Assembly (NCBI GenBank): GCA_002748755.1
Contig: PDTD01000004.1
Location: 1-33,502 of the forward strand
Direction: 5' to 3'
Origin: Desulfobulbus propionicus
Lineage (GTDB): Bacteria > Desulfobacterota > Desulfobulbia > Desulfobulbales > Desulfobulbaceae
DNA length: 33,502 nt
Positions 4,487-33,502 of this stretch are shown piece by piece (the stretch's first letter is position 1; the number at the start of each line of letters is the position of its first letter). A program made the position numbers and the translations under genes. Under the pieces are notes generated by a model. The model was not told the origin of the DNA. It did not search any database and saw only the letters and a program-made list of their open reading frames with translations.

Positions 4487-4524
4487 AGTGCTCTGTCTGA
4501 GCACACAGAAAATCCGGGTGGAAT

Positions 4525-4581
4525 GAGTGACCCAAAACTGGGCCATCTGGTGCCTCCTGAGCGGATGAAAAAACCGGGTTC
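4525..4581 (+). repeat. Dispersed repeat, 3'-end fragment (copy E)
   Basis: These 57 bases align by eye with the last ~55 bases of the full copies at 8148 and 20612. They share a CCAAAACT block, an internal CTGG, then CCTGAGCGGATGAAAAAACC corresponding to the right terminal repeat. It lies just beyond the stop of the broken peptidase and before the convergent sigma-factor gene. Divergence is considerable, so it is an old copy. Confidence 0.45.
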
Positions 4582-5893: not shown

Positions 5894-6137
5894 ACTGCCC
5901 CTCTCGTTATCAGTATATCATAAGAGCACGGGGAACTGTGAAGCAGAAAAACACCTTGCCGCTCAAGATATGGTTCTGTTCTTGAGCGTACTTATTTGAC
6001 AGAAACACAAGGCATCCTACTTTTTTCTGTATGTGATCTCCGGGCACAGTCTCTCCCCCGTGCCCCTTATAAACCGTCCACTATGGACAAAATTTACAAT
6101 ATAAAAACAGCAAGTTAAAAATATTTTCCGGCTAATC
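5894..6137. promoter_or_regulatory. Divergent intergenic region with several inverted repeats
   Basis: Between the sigma gene (minus) and the hydrolase (plus) there are three inverted repeats. One is a perfect 9-bp stem with an 11-base loop, CGCTCAAGA/TCTTGAGCG (5960-5988). The others are GGGCAC/GTGCCC (6042-6065) and GTCCA/TGGAC (6076-6088). The first lies about 70 bases upstream of the sigma start and could be an operator or leader hairpin. No convincing promoter pair was identified. Confidence 0.4.
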
Positions 6138-6270
6138 CCCCAAAACGTTCACTAACATTCAACCCCGTCATCGCCATCTTCACCAGTGTTTTGACAGCAA
6201 AAAGGGGATACTATACTGCCAAAAACTGTGAATCTGCCACCGCCTGGGCTGATGAACAATCCGGGCTACC
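6138..6270 (+). repeat. Dispersed repeat, right-hand half (copy D)
   Basis: Aligns with the right half of the full copies: a CAAAACGTTCAC block, CGCCATCTTCACC, GTGTTTTG, CCAAAAACT, and the right terminus GGGCTGATGAACAATCCGGG. The left half could not be aligned with confidence. It ends 47 bases before the hydrolase start codon. An ATG or alternative start read within it (around 6228) would put repeat sequence into the protein, which argues for the start at 6318. Confidence 0.55.
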
Positions 6271-7217: not shown

Positions 7218-7303
7218 AACCAAATTGCTGACTTCGGTAGCACAAATACCCAAGGAGAATGCACTGCCAGCAAGTACCCAACCTGGTACCATCAAAACAC
7301 AGT

Positions 7304-8147: not shown

Positions 8148-8377
8148 CTCGTTCGGATTTCTCATGAACCTTTTATCCTTATTTGAGGAAAAAGATACGA
8201 AAACAGATGGAGGTAATGTCCTTAAACAGACTCAACTTTTGACAAAATGAACACCAAAGCTCAGCCCGGACGGCACCATCTTCGACAATAGTTTGACAAC
8301 GCATATACCCACGTATAATGTGATACCAAAACCTACCGAACCTGGCACCACCTGAGCTGATGAGAAATCCGGGCTAG
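8148..8377 (+). repeat. Dispersed ~230-bp inverted-terminus element (copy A)
   Basis: A near full-length copy. The left end is CTCGTTCGGATTTCTCATGA. The right end is CTGATGAGAAATCCGGGCTAG-like, whose complement starts CTAGCCCGGATTTCTCAT. It is collinear with copy B (20612-20839) over its whole length, with roughly 70% identity by eye; shared blocks include GCACCATCTTCGAC, CATATACCCAC and CTACCGAACCTGG. It has no open frame of note. The palindromic CTAG at the ends could be a 4-bp target duplication. It fills most of the gap between rubrerythrin and thiol peroxidase, and the tpx promoter starts 14 bases beyond its right end. Confidence 0.8.
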
Positions 8378-8390
8378 AAAAAAATCACCC

Positions 8391-8418
8391 TTTACAGACA
8401 ATCGATATTGATTAGAAT
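8391..8418 (+). promoter_or_regulatory. Candidate sigma-70 promoter for thiol peroxidase
   Basis: TTTACA, 16-base spacer, TAGAAT. The predicted transcript start is near 8425, giving a leader of about 110 bases before tpx. Confidence 0.5.
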
Positions 8419-8535
8419 ACGCTATAAAGTGTTCTTATCAGCCTCTCGTACACTCTCAAACAACAGGAACGGATACTGTCCCTTCCAGTTACCAGGAGAG
8501 GCTCATTCTAATCTCTCAACAAGGAGACATACACC

Positions 8536-9036
8536 ATGGCTCAAATCACACTCAAAGGTACTGCCATTGAGACCTCAGGAACGTTGCCAGGCAAAGGAGA
8601 CACTGCCCCGGAATTCACCCTGGTACAAAACGACCTTTCTGAGGCCACCCTGGCTGCATATGCAGGAAAGCGGGTGGTTATAAATATTTTCCCCAGCATT
8701 GATACCCCTGTCTGCGCTGCCTCTGTCCGAAAGTTCAACGAGGTTGCCTCGCAAAAGGACAATACTGTAGTACTCTGCGTTTCTGCGGACCTTCCTTTTG
8801 CCCATCAACGCTTTTGCGAAACCGACGGCCTGGAAAATGTCGTTCCGCTGAGTGTATTCCGGTCGCCTGCATTTGGTCAGGACTATGGCGTTACCATTAC
8901 CACAGGCCCCCTGGCCGGTCTGCTATCAAGAGCCATTGTCATCGTGGACACGGACGGCAAGGTTATCTATACCCAACAGGTTCCTGAGATTACCGAAGAG
9001 CCTGATTATGACGCAGCAATCGCAGCCCTTGGCTAA
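8536..9036 (+). CDS. tpx: Thiol peroxidase (Tpx-type peroxiredoxin)
   Basis: 166 residues, matching the usual length of atypical 2-Cys Tpx enzymes, which reduce hydrogen and alkyl peroxides using thioredoxin. The peroxidatic Cys60 lies in [17 protein letters not shown] and the resolving Cys94 in [11 protein letters not shown]; their spacing is that of the Escherichia coli enzyme. The ATG is preceded by an AAGGAG ribosome-binding site (8521-8526). It is bounded upstream by repeat copy A with a candidate promoter and downstream by an intrinsic terminator, so it appears to be a single-gene unit. Its place next to rubrerythrin suggests a small peroxide-defence locus in an anaerobe. Confidence 0.96.
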
Positions 9037-9079
9037 CCAGGCGTCTACCTGAATCCGTTAGGAAGACAGGTCATTTGAA

Positions 9080-9109
9080 GGGGAGCAGATACGCCCTGCT
9101 CCCCGTTTT
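9080..9109 (+). terminator. Intrinsic terminator after tpx
   Basis: Perfect 9-bp stem GGGGAGCAG/CTGCTCCCC with a 7-base loop, followed by GTTTTC. It begins 44 bases past the tpx stop codon. Confidence 0.88.
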
Positions 9110-9194
9110 CTTCCCCCCTCGAACAACAGCCACCTCTGCGGCTCCTTTTCCCCTCAGGGGCAGCACATTGTTTTTCGCAAGAGAGCATCGAAAA

Positions 9195-9253
9195 TGCCGA
9201 ATTCGGCAAAACATCTCTTTTTCGTTGAGCAAAACATCAACTCCAGATACACT
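9195..9253 (+). promoter_or_regulatory. Palindrome and promoter upstream of the Lrp-family regulator
   Basis: A perfect 14-bp palindrome TGCCGAATTCGGCA (9195-9208) lies 16 bases upstream of a candidate promoter, TTGAGC (9225-9230), 17-base spacer, TACACT (9248-9253). The predicted leader to the regulator start is about 145 bases. Lrp/AsnC proteins often autoregulate through palindromic sites, so the palindrome is a candidate operator. That is inference from position. Confidence 0.45.
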
Positions 9254-9402
9254 AGATAACGCAATCGGTATTTCTCAGCACAACTCTTTTCCGGCGATCA
9301 AGACACAAAAAAGTGCATTGAGAACCGTCTGCCGCAGGTGTCCTCCACCAAAGAGGCTGCAGATAAGGCCTTTGCCCCGGGAGAGATGTTCAGCCTGAAA
9401 CA

Positions 9403-9894
9403 ATGACAATGAAAATAGATGCCGTCAATATAGCCATTATCAACCACCTCAAAGACGGTCGGGCTCCGTATAAAAAAATTGCCGACCAGCTCTCCCTGGC
9501 CGAAGGCACTGTCCGCGCCCGCGTCAAAAAACTTACTGACGAAGGCATTCTCTCCATTAGCGGTCTGGTCAACCCCGAAGCGCTCCCTGATCAGCAGGTT
9601 GTCATGGTGGGGGTTCAGGTCAAGGATATGGACCTGGTCAAAAAGGGCAAAGAGTTCAGTACACTCCGAGGCGTTATTTCCGTCTGTGTGGTCACCGGCA
9701 GATTTGATCTTATAGTCACGGTAATGCTTGATAAGGAATTTGGCCTGCTCGAATTCTTTACTGGAGAAGTGGCAACCATTGATAATATTCGGTCCGTGGA
9801 AACCTTCGTGGTCTACAAAAGCTTTAATCTCAAAGTTCCGCTGAGTAACAATGGGCATCCCCACTCAATCGTATCCGGTAAAGAGACACTGTAG
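9403..9894 (+). CDS. Lrp/AsnC-family transcriptional regulator
   Basis: 163 residues with the two-domain Lrp layout. An N-terminal winged helix-turn-helix (about residues 5-55) contains YKKIADQLSLAEGTVRARVKKL, with ILSISGLVNPEAL as the wing. A C-terminal RAM ligand-binding domain follows, with GVISVCVVTGRFDLIVTVML, the usual 'G.yD' ligand-loop region. The family senses amino acids and binds DNA as dimers to octamers. Being directly upstream of gcvT in the same direction (131-bp gap) suggests it controls the glycine-cleavage cluster, perhaps responding to glycine or serine. A second in-frame ATG at 9409 is also possible. A palindrome and promoter lie upstream. Confidence 0.9.
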   Translation: MTMKIDAVNIAIINHLKDGRAPYKKIADQLSLAEGTVRARVKKLTDEGILSISGLVNPEALPDQQVVMVGVQVKDMDLVKKGKEFSTLRGVISVCVVTGRFDLIVTVMLDKEFGLLEFFTGEVATIDNIRSVETFVVYKSFNLKVPLSNNGHPHSIVSGKETL

Positions 9895-10025
9895 TCCGAA
9901 TTCCTCCTGAGCATGTCACAAAAACAAAAGAAAATAAAAAACCATCAGTTACAATAATATCTTCCACCAACCTCTCCAAAATGTTCAGGAGAAATCTGGG
10001 CGGGACACTTCACAGCAAGAGCACC

Positions 10026-11297
10026 ATGAAACAGACACCTCTTTACGACCTACACCTGCGGCAGGGCGCTTACATGGCGGAATTCGGTTCCTACGAAATG
10101 CCCCTCTGGTATCCCACCGGTGCCAAGGCTGAGCATCTGGCCGTCATCACCAGCGCCGGACTGTTTGACACCTCCCATATGTCCGTGCTCACCCTGCGGG
10201 GTCACGACAGTCGCCGTCTCCTCCAACGATGCCTCTCCAAAGATCTGGATGCCTGTATCGGTCCCCGAAAAACCGAAATGGTCAACGGTCGGTGTGTGTA
10301 CGGTGTGTTGCTCAACCACCAAGCCCATGTCCTTGACGACGCCATTCTCTACCAGTGTTCTACAGACCAGTTCATGCTGGTGGTCAATGCGGCAATGGGG
10401 CAGCCCATTGCTGAGCATCTACACAGGGAGCGCACAGAGAGCGAAGAGGTCACCATCACCGACTGCACAGATCAGGTTGGTAAAGTAGATCTGCAGGGAC
10501 CGGCGGCCGCTCGAATCCTCGCCCGTATCCTGGAAAACCCGGAAGACGTGTTCACCAGGATGGTGTATTTTTCCTTCAAGGGCACCTTCCGCCCCGGCAT
10601 CCTTGCAGGAGAAGATATCCGCCTCAAAGACGGCACCCCGCTGATGGTTTCCCGCACGGGCTATACAGGCGAGTTCGGGTTTGAACTCTTTGTCTCTCCA
10701 GAGCACACCCTGCCGCTCTGGGAGCAACTGCTCGCTGCCGGAGAACGGGACGGGCTGATCGCCTGCGGGCTTGCAGCAAGGGATTCGCTGAGGGCTGGAG
10801 CCGTGCTGCCGCTTTCCCACCAAGACATTGGCCCCTGGCCTTTCATGCATACGCCCTGGAACTTCACCCTGCCCCTTCGGGAAGACGGCACCATGGGCAA
10901 ACAGTTCATTGGCGCCAGCGCCCTTGCAGATCCAAAGGGCGAAATGTGGACCCTCCCCTTTGCCGGCTTTGATCCACGCAAAATACCTGTCTCGCAAAAA
11001 AACTTTGTCATGGATGGGCAGGGAAACAAAATAGGCACCATCCTCACCTGCGCTACGGACATGGCCATCGACAGGATCGACGGGGTGATCGTGAGCCTTG
11101 CCAGTCCAGCAGCCCAAGGCCGTCCCAAAGCATTCAATCCACGGGGACTCTGCTGCGGATTTATCCGAGTCACCCACAACCTGGCACCCGGAACCCTTGT
11201 AACGCTGACAGACGGCAAACGAAACATCCCAGTGGAGATACGCACAGATGTCCGGCCAGACAGAACAGCACGCAAACCCATGGCATCCATGCTGTGA
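10026..11297 (+). CDS. gcvT: Glycine cleavage system T protein (aminomethyltransferase)
   Basis: 423 residues. T protein takes the aminomethyl group from the lipoyl arm of H protein, releases ammonia and forms 5,10-methylene-tetrahydrofolate. The N-terminal TPLYDLHLRQGAYMAEFG, the AGLFDTSHM segment, VDLQGPAA, RTGYTGEFGFELF and GLAARDSLRAGA are typical of the folate-binding GcvT fold. It is longer than the usual ~360 residues, partly through a C-terminal extension rich in Arg and Asp. The start at 10026 is chosen by family alignment; an upstream ATG at 9981 adds 15 unlikely residues, and neither has a strong ribosome-binding site. It is the first gene of the cleavage cluster; gcvH follows after 63 bases. 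No glycine riboswitch pattern is visible upstream. Confidence 0.93.
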   Translation: MKQTPLYDLHLRQGAYMAEFGSYEMPLWYPTGAKAEHLAVITSAGLFDTSHMSVLTLRGHDSRRLLQRCLSKDLDACIGPRKTEMVNGRCVYGVLLNHQAHVLDDAILYQCSTDQFMLVVNAAMGQPIAEHLHRERTESEEVTITDCTDQVGKVDLQGPAAARILARILENPEDVFTRMVYFSFKGTFRPGILAGEDIRLKDGTPLMVSRTGYTGEFGFELFVSPEHTLPLWEQLLAAGERDGLIACGLAARDSLRAGAVLPLSHQDIGPWPFMHTPWNFTLPLREDGTMGKQFIGASALADPKGEMWTLPFAGFDPRKIPVSQKNFVMDGQGNKIGTILTCATDMAIDRIDGVIVSLASPAAQGRPKAFNPRGLCCGFIRVTHNLAPGTLVTLTDGKRNIPVEIRTDVRPDRTARKPMASML

Positions 11298-11360
11298 GAA
11301 AAGGAGACGATCCCCACCCATCGCAAACCCTACAAACCCAGGAGATCAGGAGCTGAACCA

Positions 11361-11765
11361 ATGAAAGAACTTGATGAACTGCAGATACCAGAAGAACTGC
11401 GCTATACCGAGGAGCATGAATGGGCCAAGTTCAACGGCGAGACCGTACGAATAGGCGTCACTGATTATGCCCAGGACCAACTGGGTGATATTGTTTTTGT
11501 CGAACTGCCAGCCGTGGGCGACCGATTCTCTCAGGGAGACGAATGTGGCACCCTGGAATCAGTCAAGGCGGTTTCAGAGTTCTACCTCCCTATGGGCGGC
11601 GAGGTGCTAGCAGTCAATACGGAACTGGAAAACTCCCCAGAGCTGCTCAACCAGGATCCGTACACCAACTGGCTCATCGAGATCAAACCGGACAACAGCG
11701 ATGCCTACAAAGACCTGCTGTCTGCCTCCGCCTACCTGGCCATGCTCAAAGGACAACTGCCATGA
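11361..11765 (+). CDS. gcvH: Glycine cleavage system H protein
   Basis: 134 residues, the lipoyl carrier that shuttles the aminomethyl intermediate between P, T and L proteins. The lipoylated lysine is Lys69 in ECGTLESVKAVSEFYLP, with the conserved upstream GDIVFVELPAVGD. The N-terminal YTEEHEWAKF is the standard family opening. The ATG follows a CAGGAG site. Its stop codon overlaps the gcvPA start by 4 bp (ATGA), implying translational coupling. Enzymes that attach and mature the lipoyl group (lipB, lipA) are encoded in the same operon. Confidence 0.97.
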   Translation: MKELDELQIPEELRYTEEHEWAKFNGETVRIGVTDYAQDQLGDIVFVELPAVGDRFSQGDECGTLESVKAVSEFYLPMGGEVLAVNTELENSPELLNQDPYTNWLIEIKPDNSDAYKDLLSASAYLAMLKGQLP

Positions 11766-13096
11766 GATACCTGCCGCACACCGAGGAAGAAATACAGGCT
11801 ATGCTGGATGTTACCGGGCATGCCAGCCTGGAAGAACTTTTTGCCTCGGTACCCTTGGATTGCCGTATGACCAGGCCATGGAACCTCCCCCCGGCGATGA
11901 GCGAATGGGAACTCAACCAACATGTGGCCGAACTGGCCGCAGCCATGCAGAGCAACGAACATACAACGGTTCTTGTGGGCGCAGGCTCCTATCATCATTA
12001 CATCCCCGAAACAGTGCGCCAGTTAATGGGACGCTCGGAATTTCTCACGGCCTACACACCCTATCAGCCTGAGATGGCCCAGGGAACGCTGCAGGGGATA
12101 TTTGAATACCAGACCCTGACTGCACGCCTGCTTGGGATGGACGCCGTCAACGCCTCCATGTACGATGGCGCCTCGGCGCTAGCCGAGGCCCTGCTCATGG
12201 GTCTGCGGACTGCCCGAAAAAAAAGCAGGGTAGCCGTGTCCAGGGCGATCCACCCTCATTACCGTGCTGTGGTGCAGACCTACCTAAAACCAACGGCATT
12301 TGAGATGCTCGAACTGCCTGTTCTGACAGATGGCAGGACTGACCTCGACAGCATAGACGACATAGAGGATCTGGCAGCCGTGGCTTTACAATCACCCAAT
12401 TTCTTCGGTGTGGTTGAGGACCTGGAAGCGGCTGCCCTCCGAATCCATGCCAAGGACGCCCTGTTCATCACCTCCTTCAGCGAACCCTTTGCCTACGGTC
12501 TATTGAAAAACCCTGGTCTATGCGGTGCCGATATCGTCTGTGGAGAAGGGCAGAGTTTTGGTCTGCCCCGTTCTTTTGGCGGCCCCGGCCTGGGTATGTT
12601 CGGCTGCAAACAACAACTGGTCCGCAATCTACCCGGTCGCCTGGTCGGGGAAACCAAAGATCTGGACGGTCAACGCGGCTTTGTCCTGACTCTGGCCACC
12701 AGAGAACAACATATCCGCCGAGAAAAGGCAACATCCAACATCTGCTCAAACCAGGGCATCTGCGCCATGACAGCCGCTGCATACATGGCTTCCCTGGGCC
12801 GAACAGGACTGCGGAAAATGTCCCGCCTCAACTACGACAAGTGCGCATACCTGAAAAACAAACTCCTCCAAGCAGGAGCCAGCCTTACCTTTTCAGGCCC
12901 GACATTCAACGAGTTCACTGTGCACTTTGACAAGGATTTTCAACCGGTATACGACAGGCTGCTGGAGCAAAACATTGTAGCCGGGCTGGAGCTGGGCACC
13001 TGGTATCCAGACCTGCGCTCACACTACCTGTTCTGCGTGACAGAGACAGTGTCCAAACAAGACATGGACACCATTATCAAGGAGATCAGAGCATGA
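11762..13096 (+). CDS. gcvPA: Glycine dehydrogenase (decarboxylating) subunit 1
   Basis: 444 residues, the alpha subunit of the split P protein, which decarboxylates glycine and loads the aminomethyl group on H protein. The family opening MRYLPHTEEEIQAMLDV and the segments YTPYQPEMAQGTLQGIFEYQ, NASMYDGASALAEA and KATSNICSNQ are diagnostic of the N-terminal half of P protein. This half lacks the PLP lysine, which is in GcvPB. It starts at 11762, overlapping gcvH by ATGA, and ends overlapping gcvPB by ATGA. The two-subunit form is typical of many anaerobes and Gram-positives. The frame is complete. Confidence 0.96.
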   Translation: MRYLPHTEEEIQAMLDVTGHASLEELFASVPLDCRMTRPWNLPPAMSEWELNQHVAELAAAMQSNEHTTVLVGAGSYHHYIPETVRQLMGRSEFLTAYTPYQPEMAQGTLQGIFEYQTLTARLLGMDAVNASMYDGASALAEALLMGLRTARKKSRVAVSRAIHPHYRAVVQTYLKPTAFEMLELPVLTDGRTDLDSIDDIEDLAAVALQSPNFFGVVEDLEAAALRIHAKDALFITSFSEPFAYGLLKNPGLCGADIVCGEGQSFGLPRSFGGPGLGMFGCKQQLVRNLPGRLVGETKDLDGQRGFVLTLATREQHIRREKATSNICSNQGICAMTAAAYMASLGRTGLRKMSRLNYDKCAYLKNKLLQAGASLTFSGPTFNEFTVHFDKDFQPVYDRLLEQNIVAGLELGTWYPDLRSHYLFCVTETVSKQDMDTIIKEIRA

Positions 13097-14571
13097 ACAA
13101 GACACCTGGAACCAGTGGTCTGATACTCGAAGAACCCCTGCTCTGGGAAAAAGGCAAACCTGGCCGCCACGGAATGTCTATCCCCAAAAACGATGTCCCG
13201 TCAGCCCCCCTGGACGAGAACCTCCTCGGTGCAGAAGTGGATTTCCCGGATCTGAGTGAAGTAGATGTGGTCCGCCACTACACCAGGCTGAGTCAATGGA
13301 ACTTCAGCGTTGACACCGGCCTGTATCCCCTGGGTTCCTGCACCATGAAATACAATCCAAAAATCAATGAAAAACACGCTGCCACACCTGCCTTGGCTGC
13401 GGCGCACCCAATGCTGGGCGAGCAGCATTCCCAGGGTGTGCTGCGGATCATGGTTGCCTTGCAAGACTACCTGGCCGACATCACCGGCCTGGATGCGGTG
13501 AGCCTGCAGCCTGCCGCCGGCGCCCATGGGGAGTTGACTGGCATGCTCCTGTTCCACGCCTTTCATGCCGACCGCCAGGCCTCAAGAAACAAAATCCTTA
13601 TCCCTGACACCGCCCACGGCACCAACCCCGCATCTGCAGCATTGTGCGGCTACAAAGCGATTCCGGTTCCCTCAAACGACCAAGGCATCCTGGAAACAGA
13701 TGCTGTAGCAAGGCTCATGGACGAGGAGACAGCAGGCATAATGCTCACCAATCCCAACACCCTGGGTCTGTTTGAAGAGCAGGTCCGACAGATTACCGAT
13801 ATCGTGCATGCCAGGGGTGGGCTGGTGTATGGTGACGGGGCCAACATGAACGCAATTCTCGGTGTGGTGGATGCCAAGAAATGCGGCATAGATGTGCTCC
13901 ACCTGAACCTACACAAAACCTTTTCCACCCCCCATGGCGGAGGAGGACCAGGTGCCGGCCCTCTTTGTGTCACCAGTGAACTGGAGCCCTTTCTTCCCAC
14001 ACCACGAGTTCTTAAAAAAGGCGACCACTACTGTCTTACAACAGACCATCCGCGATCCATCGGCCGCATACATGGTTTTCACGGGAATGTTGGTGTTCTT
14101 ATCAAGGCCTACTGCTATATTCTGTCCATGGGGGAAGAGGGGCTGAAAAAAGTCAGCCGACTGGCTGTCCTCAACGCCAACTACATCAGAGAAAAACTCA
14201 AGAACAGCTATCACCTTGCCTACGAAACGCCCTGCATGCATGAGTGCGTTTTTTCCGATGCGCTCCAGAGGAACAGCAAGGTGAGCACCCTGGATATTGC
14301 CAAGCGGCTTATTGATTACGGGTTTCACCCGCCAACGATCTATTTTCCCCTGGTGGTGCCAGGAGCGATCATGATCGAACCTACGGAATGCGAATGCAAG
14401 GATGACCTGGATCAGTTTATTACGACCATGCAACAGATAGCAGAAGAAGCTGAACACCAACCCGAGCTCCTCCACGGCGCACCCAGCAGGTGCAAGGTTA
14501 AACGACTGGATGAGGTGAGCGCGGCCCGCTGCCCTTGCCTGATAGGGATGCCTGGACAAAAAAGGGAATGA
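13093..14571 (+). CDS. gcvPB: Glycine dehydrogenase (decarboxylating) subunit 2
   Basis: 492 residues, the PLP-bearing beta subunit of P protein. The PLP Schiff-base lysine is Lys275 in LNLHKTFSTPHGGGGPG; other signatures are GSCTMKYNPKINE, LQPAAGAHGELTG and DTAHGTNPASA. It forms the active heterotetramer with GcvPA. The start overlaps gcvPA (ATGA) and the stop overlaps lipB (ATGA), so all are likely on one transcript. The final ~40 residues after the conserved region are basic and Cys-containing (ARCPCL) and may be lineage-specific. No lpd (L protein) gene follows. Confidence 0.97.
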   Translation: MNKTPGTSGLILEEPLLWEKGKPGRHGMSIPKNDVPSAPLDENLLGAEVDFPDLSEVDVVRHYTRLSQWNFSVDTGLYPLGSCTMKYNPKINEKHAATPALAAAHPMLGEQHSQGVLRIMVALQDYLADITGLDAVSLQPAAGAHGELTGMLLFHAFHADRQASRNKILIPDTAHGTNPASAALCGYKAIPVPSNDQGILETDAVARLMDEETAGIMLTNPNTLGLFEEQVRQITDIVHARGGLVYGDGANMNAILGVVDAKKCGIDVLHLNLHKTFSTPHGGGGPGAGPLCVTSELEPFLPTPRVLKKGDHYCLTTDHPRSIGRIHGFHGNVGVLIKAYCYILSMGEEGLKKVSRLAVLNANYIREKLKNSYHLAYETPCMHECVFSDALQRNSKVSTLDIAKRLIDYGFHPPTIYFPLVVPGAIMIEPTECECKDDLDQFITTMQQIAEEAEHQPELLHGAPSRCKVKRLDEVSAARCPCLIGMPGQKRE

Positions 14572-15263
14572 GCGGTCAATGGATCGATCTCGGCCTCATG
14601 GACTACCAGCAGGCCTATGCCCTCCAGCAACAACTGGTTGCTCTGCGCCACCACACTCTGCAGGATGATCTGCTGCTCAGCCTGGAGCATCCACCGGTCT
14701 ATACCCTTGGGAAACGTGGTGGGATGGAGAATCTCAGGGTAGACGAAACTTTTCTACAACGGCACAACATCCCTGTGGTGCCTATTGAACGGGGCGGTAA
14801 TATCACCTACCACGGCCCTGGGCAGGCGGTGATCTACCCCATTATCAGCCTCAAAGAACACAGACTGGCAGTCAAGGAATATGTCTGGATACTGGAAGAG
14901 ATCATGCTGCAAACAGCAGCCTGCTTTGATGTCCCAGCCTGCCGAGACGAGCGCAACCGGGGCATCTGGGTCGGCAGCGCAAAAATGGGCAGTCTGGGCA
15001 TTGCCGTTCGTCAGGGCGTCAGTTTTCATGGGCTGGCGCTCAATGTGAACACTGACCTCCGTCCTTTTTCCTGGATCACGCCCTGTGGTATCCAGGACGC
15101 GACCATGACTTCTTTGGCCCTTGAACGGGGCGCCTTTCTCTGTATGGAAAAAGTCAGGCAGGTGTTGCTGGCCCAATGCAGAAAGCACCTGGCCATGGCA
15201 CTTGAACCTGTTCCCGCAGAGACACTCTACAGATATATCAAGCACCAGGAGCACGGACAATGA
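14568..15263 (+). CDS. lipB: Lipoyl(octanoyl) transferase
   Basis: 231 residues. LipB moves octanoate from acyl carrier protein to the target lysine of lipoyl proteins such as GcvH. Catalytic Lys139 lies in VGSAKMGSLGIAVR and the acyl-accepting Cys173 in TPCGI; RGGNITYHGPGQAVIYP is the substrate-binding signature. The start is the ATG within the ATGA overlap with gcvPB; a longer reading from 14535 would intrude into gcvPB. It overlaps lipA by ATGA. Position implies that lipoylation capacity is made together with its main client, H protein. Confidence 0.96.
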   Translation: MSGQWIDLGLMDYQQAYALQQQLVALRHHTLQDDLLLSLEHPPVYTLGKRGGMENLRVDETFLQRHNIPVVPIERGGNITYHGPGQAVIYPIISLKEHRLAVKEYVWILEEIMLQTAACFDVPACRDERNRGIWVGSAKMGSLGIAVRQGVSFHGLALNVNTDLRPFSWITPCGIQDATMTSLALERGAFLCMEKVRQVLLAQCRKHLAMALEPVPAETLYRYIKHQEHGQ

Positions 15264-16189
15264 CCCGCCCCCTCAAAACAGGCAAACCGTCATGGTTACG
15301 CCGCAGGCTACCCCCAGGTGGTAGTTACGAAAAAATCCGCCACCTCGTCAGGGAAGGCTGCCTGACCACGGTCTGCCAGGAGGCCATGTGTCCCAACCAG
15401 TTTGAGTGCTTTGCCAAGGGAACGGCGACCTTCATGATTCTGGGTGATCGCTGCACCCGCAACTGCCGCTTCTGCGCCGTTCCGCACGGCCCCCTGGAAC
15501 TCCCCGACCGAAAGGAACCCCAACGCCTGGCCCAAGCTGTAGCTGACATGCACTTGCAATACGCGGTCATCACCTCCGTCACCCGTGATGACCTGCCCGA
15601 CGGAGGTGCCGCTCATTTTGCTGATACCATTGCCGCTGTTCGTCAGACATCTCCCGACATTCGGGTGGAAGTGCTGATCCCGGATTTGCTGGGCGATATC
15701 AATGCGCTGCAGACCATCCTTTTGGCCCGGCCTGATGTGCTCAACCACAACATGGAAACCGTTGAGCGGCTCTATCCTACGGTACGTCCCCAAGCTCTCT
15801 ACCACCGCTCCCTGAACCTCCTAAAAATGGTTCAAGAACTTGCGCCAACCATGCTCACCAAATCAGGGATTATGGTCGGCCTGGGCGAAACAGGGGAAGA
15901 GCTGAAGCGCCTCTTTACTGACCTGGCAGGGGTGCATTGTGATATCCTGACCATAGGACAATACCTGCAGCCCTCGACAGAGCATCTCCCGGTGAGCCGT
16001 TTTCTGCCCCCTGAAGAATTCGGGGAACTGGAGCGCCAGGCCATGGCAGCAGGTTTCGCTGCGGTCGCTTCTGGCCCATTTGTCCGCAGCTCATACCAGG
16101 CAGAATCGTTATACGCAGCAGCCGGTGAACGAAACGGCTGGCAGCCCGCTTCTTCATCCTCTTCATTCGCTAAAACACACTCTAAATAA
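15260..16189 (+). CDS. lipA: Lipoyl synthase (radical SAM)
   Basis: 309 residues. LipA inserts two sulfur atoms into protein-bound octanoyl groups. The auxiliary [4Fe-4S] cluster ligands are Cys39, Cys44 and Cys50 (CX4CX5C); the radical-SAM cluster ligands are Cys65, Cys69 and Cys72 (CTRNCRFC). The C-terminal FVRSSYQAE supplies the conserved RSSY serine that ligates the auxiliary cluster. The start overlaps lipB by ATGA. Four bases separate it from the transporter gene. Length and motifs are fully standard. Confidence 0.97.
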   Translation: MTRPLKTGKPSWLRRRLPPGGSYEKIRHLVREGCLTTVCQEAMCPNQFECFAKGTATFMILGDRCTRNCRFCAVPHGPLELPDRKEPQRLAQAVADMHLQYAVITSVTRDDLPDGGAAHFADTIAAVRQTSPDIRVEVLIPDLLGDINALQTILLARPDVLNHNMETVERLYPTVRPQALYHRSLNLLKMVQELAPTMLTKSGIMVGLGETGEELKRLFTDLAGVHCDILTIGQYLQPSTEHLPVSRFLPPEEFGELERQAMAAGFAAVASGPFVRSSYQAESLYAAAGERNGWQPASSSSSFAKTHSK

Positions 16190-16193
16190 TCCC

Positions 16194-17378
16194 ATGGCAT
16201 CCGAACAGAACACCTCACCAGAACCGATTTCTGCACCTTTTCAATTTTCCAAGGTGCTGTTGCTCTCCTTCAGCCATTTCATCCATGATGTCTATTCCAG
16301 TTTTCTCGCCCCCCTGCTGCCGCTGCTGATTGAAAAACTGTCTCTCTCCCTGACTCAGGCAGGTTTCCTCACCACCATTGTGCAAATACCTTCCCTGGTC
16401 AACCCCTATCTGGGGGCGCTGGCAGACCGACTTAACGTTCGCTTATTCATCATCATCGCGCCGGGAATTACCGCCCTGACTATGAGCCTGATTGGTGTTG
16501 CAGACAACTACGCCACCCTGTTGTTTCTGCTTTTCATTGCCGGCTGCAGCACAGCTATCTATCATGTCCCGGCTCCAGTTCTCATGTACAGGTTTGCCGG
16601 TTCCCGCAAGGGGCTGGGGATGAGTTTTTTCATGACCGGTGGGGAACTGGCACGGGCAGCAGGACCCATCATTGCCGTATCAGCAGTCGCTCTGGTCGGT
16701 CTGGAACATATCTACCCGATCATGCTTGCAGGTTTACTGACTTCACTCCTTTTGTACCACCAGTTTAAACACATTCCTCCCAGCCCCTTGAAAAAAGAGC
16801 CGCCCTCCCTGCGTGCAGCCTGGTCCAGCGCCTCCCATGTCCTGCGCCCCATCACTGGCATTCTCCTGTTTCGTGGTTTTATGCACGCCTGTATCGGCAC
16901 CTTTCTTCCCACCTTCATCAACCAGAATACAGGCAACCTCTGGCTCGCCGGACTGAGCCTCGCTGTCTACGAAACCTCGGGAGTATGCGGCGCCCTGACC
17001 TGCGGTTTTCTGAGCGACAAAATTGGTCGGCGGACAACACTTCTCCTTTCGCTGGTCCTGGCTCCACCTTTGCTGTTTCTTTTTCTGCTTACGGATCAGA
17101 CCTGGCTACAAATACTGTTTCTAATAGGAGTAGGGTTTACCGTGCTCTCAACAACCCCGGTCATGCTTGCCCTGGTCCAGGAAAACGCAGGCGACAACCC
17201 GGCAACGGTCAACGGTTTTTTCATGATGATTTCTTTCATGTCCCGCTCAGCGGTTGTGGTGGTGGTAGGGGCCATCGCCGATGCCATAGGCCTGGAAAAA
17301 ACCTATTATCTGGGCGCCGCACTCGGCGTGCTGGCCCTGCCTTTTATTCTCTCACTGCCTAAGGATCAGAAAGAATGA
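16194..17378 (+). CDS. MFS transporter, fosmidomycin-resistance-like
   Basis: 394 residues with about twelve predicted membrane segments. The N-terminus SFSHFIHDVYSSFLAPLLPLL and the internal GALADRLNVR loop resemble the Fsr (fosmidomycin resistance) branch of the major facilitator superfamily. GFLSDKIGRRTTL is the second-half MFS loop motif. The start at 16194 is chosen because the longer frame (from 16080) overlaps lipA by more than 100 bases; no strong ribosome-binding site precedes it. It is the last gene of the glycine-cleavage/lipoate operon, so the substrate could be linked to glycine, folate or lipoate metabolism, but the sequence does not show which. Repeat copy F starts at its stop codon. 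Confidence 0.85.
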   Translation: MASEQNTSPEPISAPFQFSKVLLLSFSHFIHDVYSSFLAPLLPLLIEKLSLSLTQAGFLTTIVQIPSLVNPYLGALADRLNVRLFIIIAPGITALTMSLIGVADNYATLLFLLFIAGCSTAIYHVPAPVLMYRFAGSRKGLGMSFFMTGGELARAAGPIIAVSAVALVGLEHIYPIMLAGLLTSLLLYHQFKHIPPSPLKKEPPSLRAAWSSASHVLRPITGILLFRGFMHACIGTFLPTFINQNTGNLWLAGLSLAVYETSGVCGALTCGFLSDKIGRRTTLLLSLVLAPPLLFLFLLTDQTWLQILFLIGVGFTVLSTTPVMLALVQENAGDNPATVNGFFMMISFMSRSAVVVVVGAIADAIGLEKTYYLGAALGVLALPFILSLPKDQKE

Positions 17379-17432
17379 GGTACCAAAAACTCCCGAGCCT
17401 AAGGCTGCCTAAGCGGATAAGAAACCAGCGCC
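17377..17432 (+). repeat. Dispersed repeat, 3'-end fragment (copy F)
   Basis: Immediately at the MFS stop codon, TACCAAAAACTCCCGAGCCT and then GCGGATAAGAAACCAG align with the last 55 bases of copies A and B. Only this terminal portion remains; upstream is genuine transporter coding sequence. Confidence 0.5.
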
Positions 17433-17501
17433 AGCCCACCTTGCTGACGACTTGCCCAACTGTTACCCCAACCGGTTTACCTCCGGGGCACTCTCACTGC
17501 C

Positions 17502-17544
17502 CCTCTTGAAAAGAGGTTGACAAAAAAATGTTCAGATATATAAT
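17502..17544 (+). promoter_or_regulatory. Consensus sigma-70 promoter upstream of EF-G
   Basis: Perfect TTGACA (17517-17522), 16-base spacer, perfect TATAAT (17539-17544). Directly before the -35 is an inverted repeat CCTCTT-GAA-AAGAGG (17502-17516) that could be an operator. The transcript should begin near 17551. Confidence 0.8.
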
Positions 17545-17550
17545 ATATCT

Positions 17551-17703
17551 CTTTTGGTTAAAGGCTGAAGTCGTTTAGTGTACCGACCTACCAGCCAGAA
17601 GTGGTGACATCAGCTTGACGCAGGGTTCCCCTCCTAACCCCCTGTTCTGCCACTTCCCGTGAACGAAAAAAGGAGTTGCAGAGCCACTGTAACTCCTTTT
17701 TTA
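17551..17703 (+). ncRNA. Candidate structured leader RNA or small RNA
   Basis: From the promoter to an intrinsic terminator is about 150 bases without a credible ORF. Possible helices are GCTGA/TCAGC (17564-17568 with 17610-17614), enclosing GTCG/CGAC, and GAAGTGG/CCACTTC (17598-17604 with 17650-17656), enclosing GGGTT/AACCC. The first and second helices interleave, so they are either mutually exclusive or a pseudoknot. Since the terminator comes before the EF-G gene, the RNA could be a free small RNA or an attenuator leader. It matches no RNA family I recognise. Confidence 0.4.
17672..17703 (+). terminator. Intrinsic terminator between promoter and EF-G gene
   Basis: Ten-bp stem GGAGTTGCAG/CTGTAACTCC (one G-T) with a 5-base loop and a run of T residues from 17697. 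A-tract bases precede it. It lies 66 bases before the EF-G start codon. Confidence 0.8.
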
Positions 17704-17768
17704 TTTATTGCACTGACACCATATTTGAATGGACAAGCGGCCTGAAAGCGGCACTTGAGGAACGCGTG

Positions 17769-19853
17769 ATGAAAAAAAATTTGGAGAAAGTACGAAACAT
17801 TGGTATCAGCGCCCACATTGATTCCGGCAAAACAACGCTTACCGAGCGTATTCTTTTTTATACGCAGCGTATCCATGCAATCCACGAAGTTCGTGGTAAA
17901 GACGGCGTAGGCGCGACCATGGACTCCATGGAGTTGGAAAAAGAGCGTGGGATCACCATCCAGTCTGCTGCCACCTACTGTGACTGGAAAGACTACTCAA
18001 TTAACATCATAGATACGCCAGGTCATGTCGACTTTACCATTGAGGTTGAACGAGCACTACGCGTACTTGATGGCGCGGTTCTCATCCTCTGCTCTGTCGG
18101 CGGGGTACAGTCTCAATCCATTACCGTCAACCGGCAGATGACCAGATACAAAGTGCCCAGGATCGCCTTTATTAACAAGTGCGACCGTACCGGTGCCAAT
18201 CCCTATCGCGTCACTCAACAGCTACGGGAGAAACTCGACTTAAATGCCATCATGCTCCAACTGCCCATAGGCCTGGAAAGTGAGATGGAAGGCATGGTGG
18301 ACCTGGTCACCATGCAAGCGGTCTACTTTGAGGGAGACCAGGGTGAATCCATTCGTATCGAGGCCATCCCAGATAACCTGCGTGATGAAGCCAAAAACAA
18401 ACGTGAAGAGTTGCTGGATGCGGTATCCATGTTCTCGGATGAGCTTATGGAAGCTCTGCTGGAAGAAAAAGAGATCGACGAAGCTCTCATTCACGATGCC
18501 ATACGCAAAGGCACCCTGAGCCTGGAACTGACTCCTGTGTTCATCGGTTCCGCATACAAGAACAAGGGCGTACAGCCCCTTTTGGATGCGGTCATGGCTT
18601 ACCTACCCTGCCCCACGGACATCGAGAACACCGCTTTGGATCTGGACAATGAGGAAAAAGAAATCACCGTCTCCAACAATCCCAAAGACGACCTGGTGGC
18701 TCTGGCCTTTAAACTGGAAGACGGACGCTATGGTCAACTTACCTATATTCGCACCTACCAGGGTACTCTGAACAAGGGAGACACCATCATCAACACCAGA
18801 ACGGGAAAAAAGGTCAAAGTCGGTCGTCTAGTCCGCATGCATGCAGACGAAATGGAAGAGATCGAAAGTGCCGGATCAGGGGACATCGTTGCCCTCTTCG
18901 GTGTTGATTGCGCTTCCGGGGATACCTTCTGCAACGACAAGATCAACTGGTCCATGAGTTCCATGCATGTCCCGGCTCCGGTTATATCCCTTGCTGTCCA
19001 TCCTGTTGACAATAAGGCGCAAATCAACATGTCAAAAGCGCTTAACCGTTTCACCAAGGAAGACCCGACCTTCAAAACCTATGTGGACCACGAGACCAAT
19101 GAGACCATTATTTCGGGTATGGGCGAACTGCACCTCGAGGTTTACATTGAGCGGATGAAGCGGGAGTACAAGGCGCAGGTTGAAATAGGCGCGCCGCAAG
19201 TCGCCTACCGTGAAACCATTCTCCACCGCGCCGAGTTTGATTACACCCACAAAAAACAGACAGGCGGTTCAGGGCAGTTCGGACGGGTAGCGGGCTATAT
19301 TGAGCCCTTGGAAGAGGGTGAATACGAGTTTATCGATCAAATCGTCGGTGGCGCTATTCCCCGGGAATTCATTAGTTCCTGCGATAAAGGTTTCCAGAAA
19401 GCCTTGGCAAAAGGGGTCCTCACAGGCTCACCCATCACCGGTATCCGTGTGGTCATCAATGACGGCAGCTTTCATGCTGTTGACTCCTCGGATGTCGCCT
19501 TTCAGCTGGCTTCCATAGGCGGATTCAAGGCAGGGTATCCCAAAGCCAACCCTGTTATCATGGAACCGATCATGAAAGTTGCCGTGGAAGGACCATCTGA
19601 GTTTCAGGGCGCTGTCATGGGCAGTCTAAACCAGCGTCGAGGGGTTATCATAGGCACCTTTGAAGAAGGAAACTACACCGTGGTCGAATCAGAAGTACCG
19701 CTCTCTGAAATGTTTGGCTACTCGACGACTCTACGCTCATTGACCCAAGGTAAAGCAGAGTTCACCATGGAGTTTTCCACCTACAAACAAGTGCCTAAAA
19801 GTGTAGCCGAAGAGCTGATAAAAGAATTTGAAGCACAAAAAAAGGACGCCTAA
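17769..19853 (+). CDS. fusA: Elongation factor G, mitochondrial/spd type
   Basis: 694 residues, a full-length EF-G GTPase that drives ribosomal translocation. The P-loop is [10 protein letters not shown] (residues 15-24), with [10 protein letters not shown] in switch I, DTPGH for G3 and FINKCDR for G4. The DSGKTTL wording, with [19 protein letters not shown] and [18 protein letters not shown], matches mitochondrial EF-G1 and the spdEFG1 group of spirochaetes, planctomycetes and delta-proteobacteria rather than the common DAGKTTTTER type. The ATG at 17769 follows GAGGA; a GTG three bases earlier and a frame from 17676 are less likely, since the latter reads through the terminator. A stronger promoter and a terminator-bearing leader lie upstream. 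A second EF-G would be expected elsewhere in the genome. Confidence 0.92.
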
Positions 19854-19919
19854 ATGCCGTCATTGGGTATATTACCCGGTACGAGATACTCTATGATACA
19901 ATCCTCATGAGGTACTATA

Positions 19920-20615
19920 ATGGGATATGAACCACTGGTAAGCCAAAATCCACTTCGGGTTCTCAATATGGGGAGAACCGGTAATCAGCTGGGCCTGGTC
20001 ATGGCCAGGGCCGGACTGGGGAAGACCGCCCTTCTTGTTCAGATAGCCCTGGACGCCATTCTGCGCGGTAAAAATGTACTCCATGTCGCCATAGGAGAAA
20101 CCATCGAAAAAACCCGATTCTGGTATGATGACATACTCCAGCTTATCCTTCAGGACCACAGCGTCGATCATCCCCACGAACTCATTGAGATGGTGGCCGG
20201 ACATCGCATGATCATGACCTTCAACGAATCGACGTTCAGTCGTCCCCGGTTGGAAGAACGTCTCAACGACCTGGTTCTCCAAAACATTTTCGTGCCCAAC
20301 TGCGTGGTCATTGATGGCCTGGACTTTGAAAATGCGGACCGCCGAATCATTGAAGATATCAAGGAATTGGCTGAAAATATGAGCATCCAGGTCTGGCTTT
20401 CAGCAATCAGCCACCGGGGAGACAGCCGTTTCTCTCCGGCCGGTGTTCCAGCCCCCTGCCATGAAATCGATGACCTTTTTGACACCATCATCCTGCTGAA
20501 GCCCGAGTCCGACTCCACTATCAACTTGGAGATTATTCGCAACAGCGGAGAAAAGGTGGAAAACGGTACCGGCCTCAAGCTTGATCCCACGACCATGATG
20601 GTCAAGGCTATCTAG
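19920..20615 (+). CDS. RecA/KaiC-like P-loop ATPase, function unknown
   Basis: 231 residues with a single RecA-type ATPase domain. The Walker A region reads ARAGLGKT (residues 29-36), with Ala where the first Gly normally stands; Walker B is CVVIDGLDF (Asp132). VLHVAIGETIEKTRFWYDD resembles the region after the P-loop in KaiC/RadA-like proteins. It lacks a second ATPase domain or zinc finger, so it is not RadA or full KaiC. GAGGT precedes the ATG. It lies 66 bases after EF-G and may share its transcript. The stop codon TAG is the second to fourth base of the terminal repeat CTAG of repeat copy B, so the C-terminus may have been shortened or replaced by that insertion. The biological role is unknown. 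Confidence 0.75.
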   Translation: MGYEPLVSQNPLRVLNMGRTGNQLGLVMARAGLGKTALLVQIALDAILRGKNVLHVAIGETIEKTRFWYDDILQLILQDHSVDHPHELIEMVAGHRMIMTFNESTFSRPRLEERLNDLVLQNIFVPNCVVIDGLDFENADRRIIEDIKELAENMSIQVWLSAISHRGDSRFSPAGVPAPCHEIDDLFDTIILLKPESDSTINLEIIRNSGEKVENGTGLKLDPTTMMVKAI

Positions 20616-20839
20616 CCCGGATTTCTCATGGGCTCTTTGTCTGATTTAAGAAAAAAAGACAAAAACAAATGCAGATGATGTCCATACGCAGGCTCAAATC
20701 TCAACAAAATGTGCACCAACGCTCAGCCCAGGCGGCACCATCTTCGACTGTGTTTTGGTCACACATATACCCACCTCTAAGGCGGGACTAAAAACTACCG
20801 AACCTGGGCCCACCTGAGCAGATAAGAAATCAGGGCTAG
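20612..20839 (+). repeat. Dispersed ~230-bp inverted-terminus element (copy B)
   Basis: 228 bp bounded by CTAGCCCGGATTTCTCAT on the left and a right end whose complement is CTAGCCCTGATTTCTTAT. It is collinear with copy A. Its left CTAG forms the stop codon of the ATPase gene. A further left-type terminus, CGGATTTCTCATCAGGG, follows directly at about 20842, suggesting a second, lost copy beside it. Confidence 0.8.
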
Positions 20840-21005
20840 AACGGATTTCTCATCAGGGAAGTTGTTCGCAGATTAGGACGCAGGTCGGTCCAGGATCATC
20901 CACCGCGTCCATTCTGCAACCAAGAGCCGACAAAATGCTCTCTTGTCTCAAAGGGCGACGGTCCCGATTTTTGACGAACAGAAGTCTGTCTTCTGCTCAT
21001 ACAAC

Positions 21006-25149: not shown

Positions 25150-27273
25150 ATGGTGAGTTCAATGCGCCGTTTTTTCTACAACCTGCTTTTCATACTCTGT
25201 GTGCTTTTGGCCCAGACGGGATGGTCAAAAGTATTTCCCTCCGAATTCAATGCCGGTCGAAATCAGTTGATAGCTTATATTCTCAGTCATCAGCTACCGG
25301 CACGGCATTTTTCCCATGAGCCCTTTGACGATACGCTTTCCAAAGTAGCCTTTGACCTTTACATCCGACAACTTGACCCTCGCAAACGTTTTCTCCTCCA
25401 ATCGGATGTCGATCAACTACAGGCCTTTGCAGAGCACATTGATGACGAACTCAAACGCGGTCGAATCATACTCGCTGATGCCGGGGCAGAGCTGCTCAAC
25501 GACAGGATACGTCTGGTCAAGGGCTTTCTTGATACGCTGCTGGACCAAAAAATCGATATCAACAAAGATGAATACCTGGAAGCTGATCCTGAAAAAATCA
25601 CCTTCCCGAAAACCTCCAGAGACCTACAAGAACGCTGGCGAAAAATCATCAAAATGATGGTCCTTGATACTTATTTCGAACAGTTCGAACAGGAACTGGA
25701 AAAAACAAACCAAAAAGAAGACACCCCGATCCCTTTTCCAACAGAAGACCAGCTAGAAAAAGCTGTTGAAAAGGTTCGTACGCGTACCCGCAGGTCAATG
25801 GACCGCTTGCTCTCCCAGACCAGACAGGATCATTACAACCGCTTTTTTGATGCCGTTGCCAGGTCATTTGATCCCCATACCAATTATATGCCGCCCACAT
25901 CAAAAGAAGATTTCAATATCCATATGAGCGGTTCTCTTGAGGGCATCGGTGCGATGTTGCGTGAAGAGGACGGCCTTATCAAGGTGGTCCGTATCATGCC
26001 AGGCAGCGGGGCGGAGCGACAAGGGGAGCTGGCTGCAGAAGACACCATCCTGACCGTCAGGGAAAAAGACGGTGATGCGGTCGAGATTTCGGACATGCGG
26101 ATCCGGGAGGCTGTCAGTTATATACGCGGCCCCAAAGGCACGGAAGTCATTCTCGGCGTGCAAAAACCAGACGGCAGCAAAAAAACTATTTCCATCATGA
26201 GGGACGTTGTCCGGCTGGAAGAAACCTACGTTAAATCCACGGTACTGGCAACAGAGAGCAACAACAAAATAGGTTATTTACGTATACCAAGTTTTTACCG
26301 GGATTTTGCGGCCGCCGCCAACGACAAAAAAGGACGAAACGTCACCGATGACACCAGAAGCGAGTTACAGAAGCTGAAGGAGCAGGACGTGGTCGGTATC
26401 ATCCTTGACCTGCGAAACAACGGTGGTGGGGCGCTGGGTGATGCCGTCAATATTTCCGGTTTATTCCTGCCAGGCGGTCCGGTCGTTCAAGTGAAGAATT
26501 CCCAGGGGGTGATCAGCGTACTGCAAGATGAAGACCCAACCACCATCTATGATGGCCCTCTTATTATCCTGGTCAACCAGTTCAGCGCCTCTGCCTCGGA
26601 AATTCTGGCAGCAGCCTTACAGGACTATGGGAGAGCATTGATTATCGGCGGCAGCCATACCCATGGCAAGGGAACAGTACAGGCTGTGCTCGATATGAAC
26701 AGCAATCTCCCGCTGCTGCAAATGAAACGCTACGACGACTTGGGTGCCCTGAAGCTAACTGTGCAGAAATTTTATCGGATTAACGGTGATTCTACACAAT
26801 CAAAAGGAGTAACGCCCGATCTAGTCGTCCCCTCCCTGCTTGACTATCTGGAAAGCGGTGAACAGTTCATGGACAATCCCCTCCCCTGGGACAAGGTGGA
26901 AGATGTCGGCTATGATCGTTGGCAAGGCCCTCATTTTGATGTGCAAACAGTTCGCCAAGAAGGCATGCAGTGGGTGGTCAATAGTCCCCAGTTTCAGGAA
27001 ATCAGGCGTGAGGTTGATCAGGCCAAAGAGAGAAAAGAACAGACGCAAGTGACAATCTCCTTCCAGGCCATGCGTAAGGAACGAGAAGAACTGGAAAAAA
27101 ACAGACAACAAGCCATGCAGGCTGGTTTGCTCGCTGGCACGGAGGCCGACGACGACCGAGAGGGAGACATCCCGCTGAGCGAGGAAATCAAAAATGACCC
27201 CTTTGTCCAGATCTCACTTTTTTTACAAGGAACCAAGTCTCTCACCCAAGCCTCTGTGAGCGAAGCCCATTAA
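25150..27273 (+). CDS. prc: Tail-specific (C-terminal processing) protease, Prc/Tsp type
   Basis: Up to 707 residues, like the long Prc of E. coli (682). An N-terminal signal segment (MRRFFYNLLFILCVLLAQ, from the ATG at 25162) directs it to the periplasm. A PDZ-like substrate-binding region falls around residues 265-350 (GIGAMLREEDGLIKVVRIMPG). The S41 catalytic domain has the middle Ser of FSASASE (Ser481) and Lys507 in HGKGTVQ, the Ser/Lys dyad; spacing is one residue longer than in E. coli. The C-terminal ~150 residues correspond to the family's helical DUF3340 region. Start codons at 25150, 25153 and 25162 are all possible. A terminator lies 93 bases downstream. Confidence 0.93.
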   Translation: MVSSMRRFFYNLLFILCVLLAQTGWSKVFPSEFNAGRNQLIAYILSHQLPARHFSHEPFDDTLSKVAFDLYIRQLDPRKRFLLQSDVDQLQAFAEHIDDELKRGRIILADAGAELLNDRIRLVKGFLDTLLDQKIDINKDEYLEADPEKITFPKTSRDLQERWRKIIKMMVLDTYFEQFEQELEKTNQKEDTPIPFPTEDQLEKAVEKVRTRTRRSMDRLLSQTRQDHYNRFFDAVARSFDPHTNYMPPTSKEDFNIHMSGSLEGIGAMLREEDGLIKVVRIMPGSGAERQGELAAEDTILTVREKDGDAVEISDMRIREAVSYIRGPKGTEVILGVQKPDGSKKTISIMRDVVRLEETYVKSTVLATESNNKIGYLRIPSFYRDFAAAANDKKGRNVTDDTRSELQKLKEQDVVGIILDLRNNGGGALGDAVNISGLFLPGGPVVQVKNSQGVISVLQDEDPTTIYDGPLIILVNQFSASASEILAAALQDYGRALIIGGSHTHGKGTVQAVLDMNSNLPLLQMKRYDDLGALKLTVQKFYRINGDSTQSKGVTPDLVVPSLLDYLESGEQFMDNPLPWDKVEDVGYDRWQGPHFDVQTVRQEGMQWVVNSPQFQEIRREVDQAKERKEQTQVTISFQAMRKEREELEKNRQQAMQAGLLAGTEADDDREGDIPLSEEIKNDPFVQISLFLQGTKSLTQASVSEAH

Positions 27274-27365
27274 TTTTTCCTTGAAATCAGGTTCTAATCA
27301 TGATAGAGCATTTCGTGCATGAATCATCATTCATTTTTACATTGAACCTACGTGTGATTATCAGG

Positions 27366-27400: not shown

Positions 27401-27471
27401 CTTGACATAATTGCAGTGCACGAACAACAGGGCCCGGCTTAATGCTGCCGGGATCCGATCGCCTACGAATC

Positions 27472-33353: not shown

Positions 33354-33423
33354 TGGACTACGGATTTCTGATGAACAATATGTCTCATTTGAGAAAAAAG
33401 AGACTAACCCGCATTTCTCATCA
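33354..33423 (+). repeat. Dispersed repeat, left-end fragment (copy C)
   Basis: Contains CGGATTTCTGATGAACAATA, and then ATTTGAGAAAAAAGAGAC aligns with the first ~55 bases of copy A. A second left-type terminus, CCCGCATTTCTCATCA, follows at 33408-33423. The remainder to the window end does not align further. This is the only fragment that keeps the left rather than the right end. Confidence 0.5.
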
Positions 33424-33502
33424 AGTGCAAGGCTGACCATATTTTCCAAGATAAATCAGTTTTGATTGCTCATTTTCTCCTACAAGCTGACCATTTGTTG
33501 CC

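Follow-up and report, generated by a model that had tools for sequence, protein, structure and literature searches.

Bacterial miniature inverted-repeat transposable elements (MITEs) are usually treated as passive DNA, with their foldback regarded as a by-product of the inverted ends; one of them, Chunjie, has a stable fold and an insertion in an operon. Chunjie is a 235-bp element of Geobacter uraniireducens with inverted ends, direct repeats, and tens of copies (PMC10969869). ERIC, BOX, RUP, Correia/NEMIS, and QMITE are small mobile repeats whose transcripts are reported to be highly base-paired (PMC2229807, PMC3049150, PMC5896051), and MITEs with base-paired transcripts are a known kind (PMC2229807, PMC10969869, PMC3049150, PMC5896051, PMC6382973). 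The DNA considered here is a 33,502-nt stretch of Desulfobulbus propionicus (assembly GCA_002748755.1, contig PDTD01000004.1, positions 1 to 33,502), referred to below as the window, which contains copies of a dispersed repeat of about 230 bp. A preliminary description, made from the letters of the window, had read these repeats as an old family, possibly a MITE, and had offered an RNA-level role as the alternative. The repeat family is a MITE, i.e., a nonautonomous transposon, and the explanation that accounts best for the observations as a whole, and is probably correct, is that this MITE carries a conserved structured RNA. A conserved fold was found, and the RNA-level role stands as a second layer of the same mobile element and not as an alternative to it.

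The repeat family in the genome

With 150 of 1,482 candidates scored, a sequence profile search of the 2.0-Mb genome under study (G000) gave at least 153 matches, and 40 copies were found at E <= 2.1e-32, with 40 of 299 candidates scored; the copy number is a lower bound because not all candidates were scored. A 15-base end pattern with up to 2 mismatches matched 217+196 times in the genome, versus 0+1 for the reversed control, and with up to 3 mismatches the end pattern occurred 7 times in the window versus 0.02 expected. The dispersed family is therefore real, with many copies beyond the window and ends that recur as units; neither of the outcomes named in the preliminary description as refuting it occurred. 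The consensus of the 40 copies is 229 bp long (a 221-bp core plus 4-bp flanks), has 14-bp terminal inverted repeats (CCCGGATTTCTCAT), and contains no open frame. The family is thus short, multicopy, and noncoding, and it has the inverted ends and target duplication of a MITE, as had been proposed. Its two most complete copies in the window are as follows.

8148..8377, minus strand: copy A with flanks (core approximately 8152-8373); the strand is that of the conserved fold
20612..20839, minus strand: copy B with flanks (core 20616-20835); the strand is that of the conserved fold
20612..20615, no strand: left CTAG of the copy B target duplication; its TAG is the stop codon of open frame 19920-20615
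20836..20839, no strand: right CTAG of the copy B target duplication

Copies A and B are collinear end to end, as first described, and share 78% identity in a pairwise comparison, more than the 70% or so estimated by eye; the left end of copy A is degenerate (CTCGTTCGGATTTCTCAT, 3 mismatches). The open-frame listing agrees that neither copy contains an open reading frame.

The 40 copies are each 78-89% identical to their own consensus, with a mean identity of 82.5% over 100 G000 copies, and the family is indeed old in this genome. The 21 copies of genome G005 are 91% identical to the G005 consensus, which indicates that they are younger than those of G000. The two consensuses share 89.6% identity, and orthologous blocks of the two genomes mostly share only 66-76%. 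On the basis of this comparison, the repeats are read as having spread after the two species parted, or between species.

Conserved fold and covariation

Comparison among copies shows a predicted fold in which one strand of the repeat, the minus strand in the window, pairs along almost its whole length to form a three-way junction. The base stem of this junction consists of the inverted ends, and its other elements are a long arm of approximately 97 nt, a 3-bp mini-hairpin, and a second arm with a variable loop. For the consensus of the G000 copies, the folding energy is -116 kcal/mol for the minus strand versus -94 for the plus strand. When the consensuses of G000, G005, G003, and G004 were folded separately (leaving out L302 and L308 of G003 and L318 of G004), each gave the same three-way junction, with sense and antisense energies of -107/-85, -111/-93, -89/-66, and -91/-60, respectively.

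The alignment fold of 34 young copies reached -47 for the minus strand and -21.5 for the plus strand; when the columns of the minus-strand alignment were shuffled, the value was -5.4 +- 2.4. In these copies, changes on both sides of a pair were found in 125 cells versus 46 in shuffled alignments (reached in 0 of 500 shuffles), and 17 of the 70 pairs carried such changes versus 11.8 expected (reached in 3 of 500). With the addition of G079, G026, and G001, double changes were found in 44 of the 70 pairs and in 221 versus 60 cells (0 of 500 shuffles). A further set of 23 newly reached genomes, consisting of one copy per genome, none used to build the model, was fitted to the model; the mean identity among these copies is 56%, and 53 of the 70 pairs showed double changes, in 269 versus 88 cells (0 of 500 shuffles). 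All 23 copies also fold unaided, with the sense strand more stable in each. Greater stability of the sense strand was likewise seen without exception in 10 copies from G079, G026, and G001 and in the 10 phylum copies folded (12 listed). Alignment A3 excluded L319 and L320, which have insertions, and 5 of the 21 G005 copies; L328 and L329, which have no end pair, were not folded, and L335 was left out of alignment A5.

Several observations weigh against the conserved fold. RNAalifold applied to 40 decayed G000 copies returned 0 pairs for the plus strand and 4 for the minus strand, the pair-type count in the 34 young copies showed no excess (60 versus 59.7 in shuffles), and alignments A5 and A6 were fitted to the model. 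In a second repeat family of G003, 2 of 6 copies fold slightly better in antisense, the sense strand being more stable in the other 4. This second family (L423-L428) has many copies in G003 and is unlike the present one in sequence, with the same three-arm layout.

Selected strand and selected copies

In folds made without G-U pairs, the positions opposed to each other in the four species held 18 G-U versus 0 A-C combinations; the four species are related, and these are not 18 independent events. The seven species consensuses, in an alignment fitted to the model, gave 32 G-U versus 6 A-C, with G001 reversed (2 to 3), and the 23 genomes, in a similarly fitted alignment, gave 132 versus 43, with G-U ahead in 22. 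The excess of G-U over A-C is explained by selection acting on an RNA or on a single strand of DNA, and correction between the arms of a palindrome fails to explain it.

The 100 G000 copies served as a neutral control. Their paired cells numbered 6,326 versus 6,331 +- 15 in shuffles, paired double changes numbered 98 versus 106.5 +- 8.8, and new one-sided transitions produced 493 G-U and 495 A-C. Selection on the resident copies is rejected by the shuffles and by the equal counts of new G-U and A-C, and the resident G000 copies decay neutrally with respect to the fold. Since the resident copies are neutral and the fold is kept across genera and families, selection seems to operate on the lineage of still-moving copies and not on hosts at single loci.

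Target duplication, empty sites, and stop codons

Both ends were located in 99 of the 100 G000 copies, and the remaining one was left out of the duplication and stop codon counts. In 14 copies the 4-base flanks were identical and nonpalindromic, in 8 they were identical palindromes, and in 1 they were inverted, whereas 5,000 shuffled flank pairings gave a mean of 2.9 and a maximum of 9 direct nonpalindromic pairs. CTAG is therefore part of the target and not of the element ends, which bears out the suggestion that the CTAG flanks of copy B are a 4-bp target duplication. Direct, palindromic, and inverted flanks numbered 6, 1, and 0, respectively, in 20 G005 copies (shuffle mean, 1.8; maximum, 6) and 8, 3, and 0 in 23 copies from 23 other genomes. 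Together, these counts show a target-site duplication of 4 bp of the type YTAR.

Synteny around copy B extends to all six same-genus species. In 6 of 6, the upstream gene stops, the next gene follows, and the element is absent; the profile and the fold model gave no match at this site in the six species. The gap holding copy A, between rubrerythrin and peroxiredoxin genes, has no repeat match in G001 and G006, and the two flanking genes had no match in the G002 stretch examined. In G003, the gap is occupied by a member of another family in opposite orientation (L421 11151-11396 versus window 8152-8373), so that one gap has received two insertions, copy A in G000 and the other-family copy in G003.

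In 17 of the 99 G000 copies, the duplication coincides exactly with the end of an open frame (stop to stop, 150 codons or more), versus 0 to 2 at each other offset (24 offsets, -12 to +12) and a mean of <=0.5 further out. The same holds for 3 of 21 G005 copies, and at copy B the stop codon is the natural gene end, as judged by relatives. Repeat-supplied stop codons are not new, because a report on Streptococcus pneumoniae describes BOX repeats as the source of the stop codon for 36 coding sequences (PMC3049150); the exact coincidence of the stop codon with the target duplication is what this analysis adds. A YTAR target would often fall on TAA or TAG stops, and the duplication would rebuild the stop and leave the upstream gene unharmed, which would give a simple route for transposons to insert beside genes without harm.

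Candidate mobilizing transposase

The MITE is, as strongly indicated by shared terminal sequences, probably moved in trans by DDE transposases of the IS1380 type (PF13701), because elsewhere in the order IS1380 elements show these ends and this duplication. G015, of another genus, contains a 1.7-kb IS1380-type element that has both ends, a frame of 477 codons, and a flanking CTAA at each side. G132 contains two IS1380-type elements whose ends are identical to those of the G132 repeat, with duplications CTAA and CTAG and a transposase split in two frames. In G026, a variant end (ATATTTCA) is common to the insertion sequence and the repeat, and the insertion sequence is broken. Of the autonomous element with the same termini that the preliminary description had left to be looked for, the candidates are thus the elements of G015 and, with a transposase in two frames, of G132; in G000, PF13701 gives four fragments. 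One of these, at a contig edge, is the start of a transposase behind a 2-mismatch end (CCTGCATTTCTCAT / GTTAGCCTGCATTTCTCAT).

Other observations tell against an IS1380-type mover. In G000, the search showed no intact IS1380 transposase, and the fold models find no match in G015, which has an intact element. G004 has no PF13701 match, the PF13701 fragments of G003 and G005 are without these ends, and PF13701 matches are absent from 5 of the 13 genomes that carry the repeat. The ends of the insertion sequence in G142 (ATATTTCA type) do not match those of the one G142 repeat examined, the PF13701 loci examined in G079, G127, G140, and G141 showed no ends of this kind, and G224 has one 2-mismatch end.

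The possibility that the fold is part of an IS1380 element was also considered and rejected, as no fold-model match was found in the insertion sequence loci searched, apart from a separate copy in L041. There, at 1501-1909, an IS1380 transposase fragment directly adjoins a repeat copy. No repeat copies were found in 18 named loci of relatives. In G132 (L375, L381, L388, L395), the transposase frames overlap at the same place in two both-ended copies and a third, degraded one, possibly reflecting a frameshift signal. G015 (L050, L055, L060) contains other short repeats with the end CTAGCCCGGATTTCTCATCAGC and no fold-model match.

Proposed explanation and alternatives

The retention of the fold despite changed letters suggests, from sequence comparison, that a shaped RNA travels with the elements. 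As selection on the moving lineage only would imply, the RNA (or single-stranded DNA) would serve the spread of the element itself, most likely through recognition of the RNA by a transposase or host factor during mobilization. A DDE transposase of the IS1380 type would act in trans on the MITE ends and duplicate YTAR. A more specific version, in which a mobile structured RNA that occurs across an order and in parts of its phylum is recognized, as the folded sense RNA, by IS1380-type transposases or controls them, would make the MITEs RNA-dependent passengers that are themselves involved in transposition; we regard it as tentative and rather unlikely.

The distances to genes and the overall orientations that bear on the alternatives were obtained by using bare open frames of 90 codons or more as gene calls. 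With respect to co-directional genes, orientation is unbiased (28 plus, 21 minus), which weighs against the proposed explanation; among the 17 stop codon copies, judged by the stop-to-stop frames, it is 9 to 8. The lack of bias suits an alternative in which the selected molecule is single-stranded DNA, folding in replication or transposition and recognized by a recombinase, as are the folded single-strand sites of attC cassettes and IS200/IS605. The strand bias would also fit, since G-T pairs form in DNA too, and the ends are located in the base stem; however, inverted ends together with a duplication of 4 bp and DDE transposases suggest that the substrates are double-stranded, and this alternative is unlikely.

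Two further alternatives are improbable, to about the same degree. Templated correction of imperfect palindromes, taking place as the DNA is replicated, might keep the arms similar with no selection on the fold. Such correction would produce paired double changes, but it does not predict that G-U should outnumber A-C on one strand (18 to 0 and 132 to 43) or the constant three-arm layout with its mini-hairpin, and none is visible in the 100 decaying G000 copies. The repeat might otherwise be a host regulatory RNA or mRNA-end stabilizer, spread by transposition and useful at many loci. Copies do lie close to genes (median, 32 nt from 3' ends and 94 nt from 5' ends), and 17 of 99 begin at a stop codon; against this, resident copies decay neutrally and occur in both orientations. 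It is very improbable that the repeat is an ordinary MITE with an incidental fold moved by an IS5-type transposase, the source first suggested from the CTAG duplication: highly base-paired MITE transcripts are already known (PMC2229807), but a search limited, among IS5-type Pfam models, to PF01609 (IS4/IS5-type DDE) found nothing in G000 and G005, 0 of 17 PF01609 loci in G003 and G004 have a pair of these ends, IS1380-type elements are bounded by them instead, and covariation across families is not incidental.

A MITE carrying a conserved structured RNA remains the preferred explanation. One architecture kept on one strand through many genera while resident copies rot would make the needs of the mobile lineage separable from host use, and a role of folded RNA or a single strand in DDE transposition becomes testable.

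Distribution across genomes

A first covariance model matched 9 of 73 genomes of the family, and a second matched 64 of 257 genomes of the order, in 26 of 69 genera. In a sample of 395 genomes from the phylum, 7 further ones were matched. Nine candidates per genome were scored in the order search and five in the phylum search, with stricter filters, and absences in these searches are soft for that reason. Collections of plasmid and phage/viral contigs gave no blastn match to one copy (L350) and none to one exact 20-base pattern. The copies outside the order (L403-L408, L412, L415) have the end CCCGGATTATGCAG or similar, and their flanks are not clear 4-base duplications; given these differing ends and flanks, their transposase may differ.

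Other features of the window

The remaining copies and fragments in the window are as follows.

6053..6269, minus strand: degenerate copy, nearly full length
4498..4580, minus strand: fragment, model positions 146-227
7232..7296, minus strand: fragment, model positions 143-207
17367..17431, minus strand: fragment, model positions 162-226
33361..33408, minus strand: left-end fragment, model positions 7-54
33404..33502, plus strand: weak candidate for the first part of another element, with end CTAACCCGCATTTCTCAT, truncated at the edge of the contig; 83% match in G002
9895..10000, minus strand: possible internally deleted copy, weak (E 0.012 to 0.03)
20836..20884, plus strand: remnant, one end of the second family of G003, abutting copy B

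Of the four partial copies in the preliminary description, those at 4525, 17377, and 33354 correspond to pieces found here; the one at 6138 proved to be nearly full length, and the fragment at 7232-7296 had been missed. The profile of 40 copies matches 6096-6268 of the 6-kb copy, and the later structure model reads 6057-6265 (E 1e-15). Copies A and B and five pieces share a single orientation within the window; elsewhere in the genome both orientations occur. A 72-base noncoding stretch at 27268-27339, before open frame 27411-27830, shares 93% identity with G005, whereas nearby blocks are only approximately 66-76% identical; ARAGORN found no tRNA in it.

Comparison with known systems

The literature search returned no description of this family, nor of a fold that has been followed through an order by its covariation and that combines a strand bias with neutrality of the resident copies; subscription papers lie mostly outside its coverage, and this is weak evidence of absence. 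The repeat resembles the families of Rfam 15 in being a conserved structured RNA-like element and differs in having no gathering-score match: a scan of the window gave no family at that score, and four repeat loci gave only microRNA-hairpin matches below threshold (best E, 0.05). With IS1380 insertion sequences, it shares the terminal sequence and the 4-bp YTAR-type duplication in G015 and G132 and the end variant in G026; unlike them, it has no transposase, and by eye nothing is common beyond the ends. Chunjie is similar in size, inverted ends, direct repeats, and phylum, and it may be a relative of this family. The folds of ERIC, BOX, RUP, Correia/NEMIS, and QMITE are reported, in the parts of those papers available, within a genome or among close relatives, whereas the covariation of the present family spans 26 of the 69 genera of an order.

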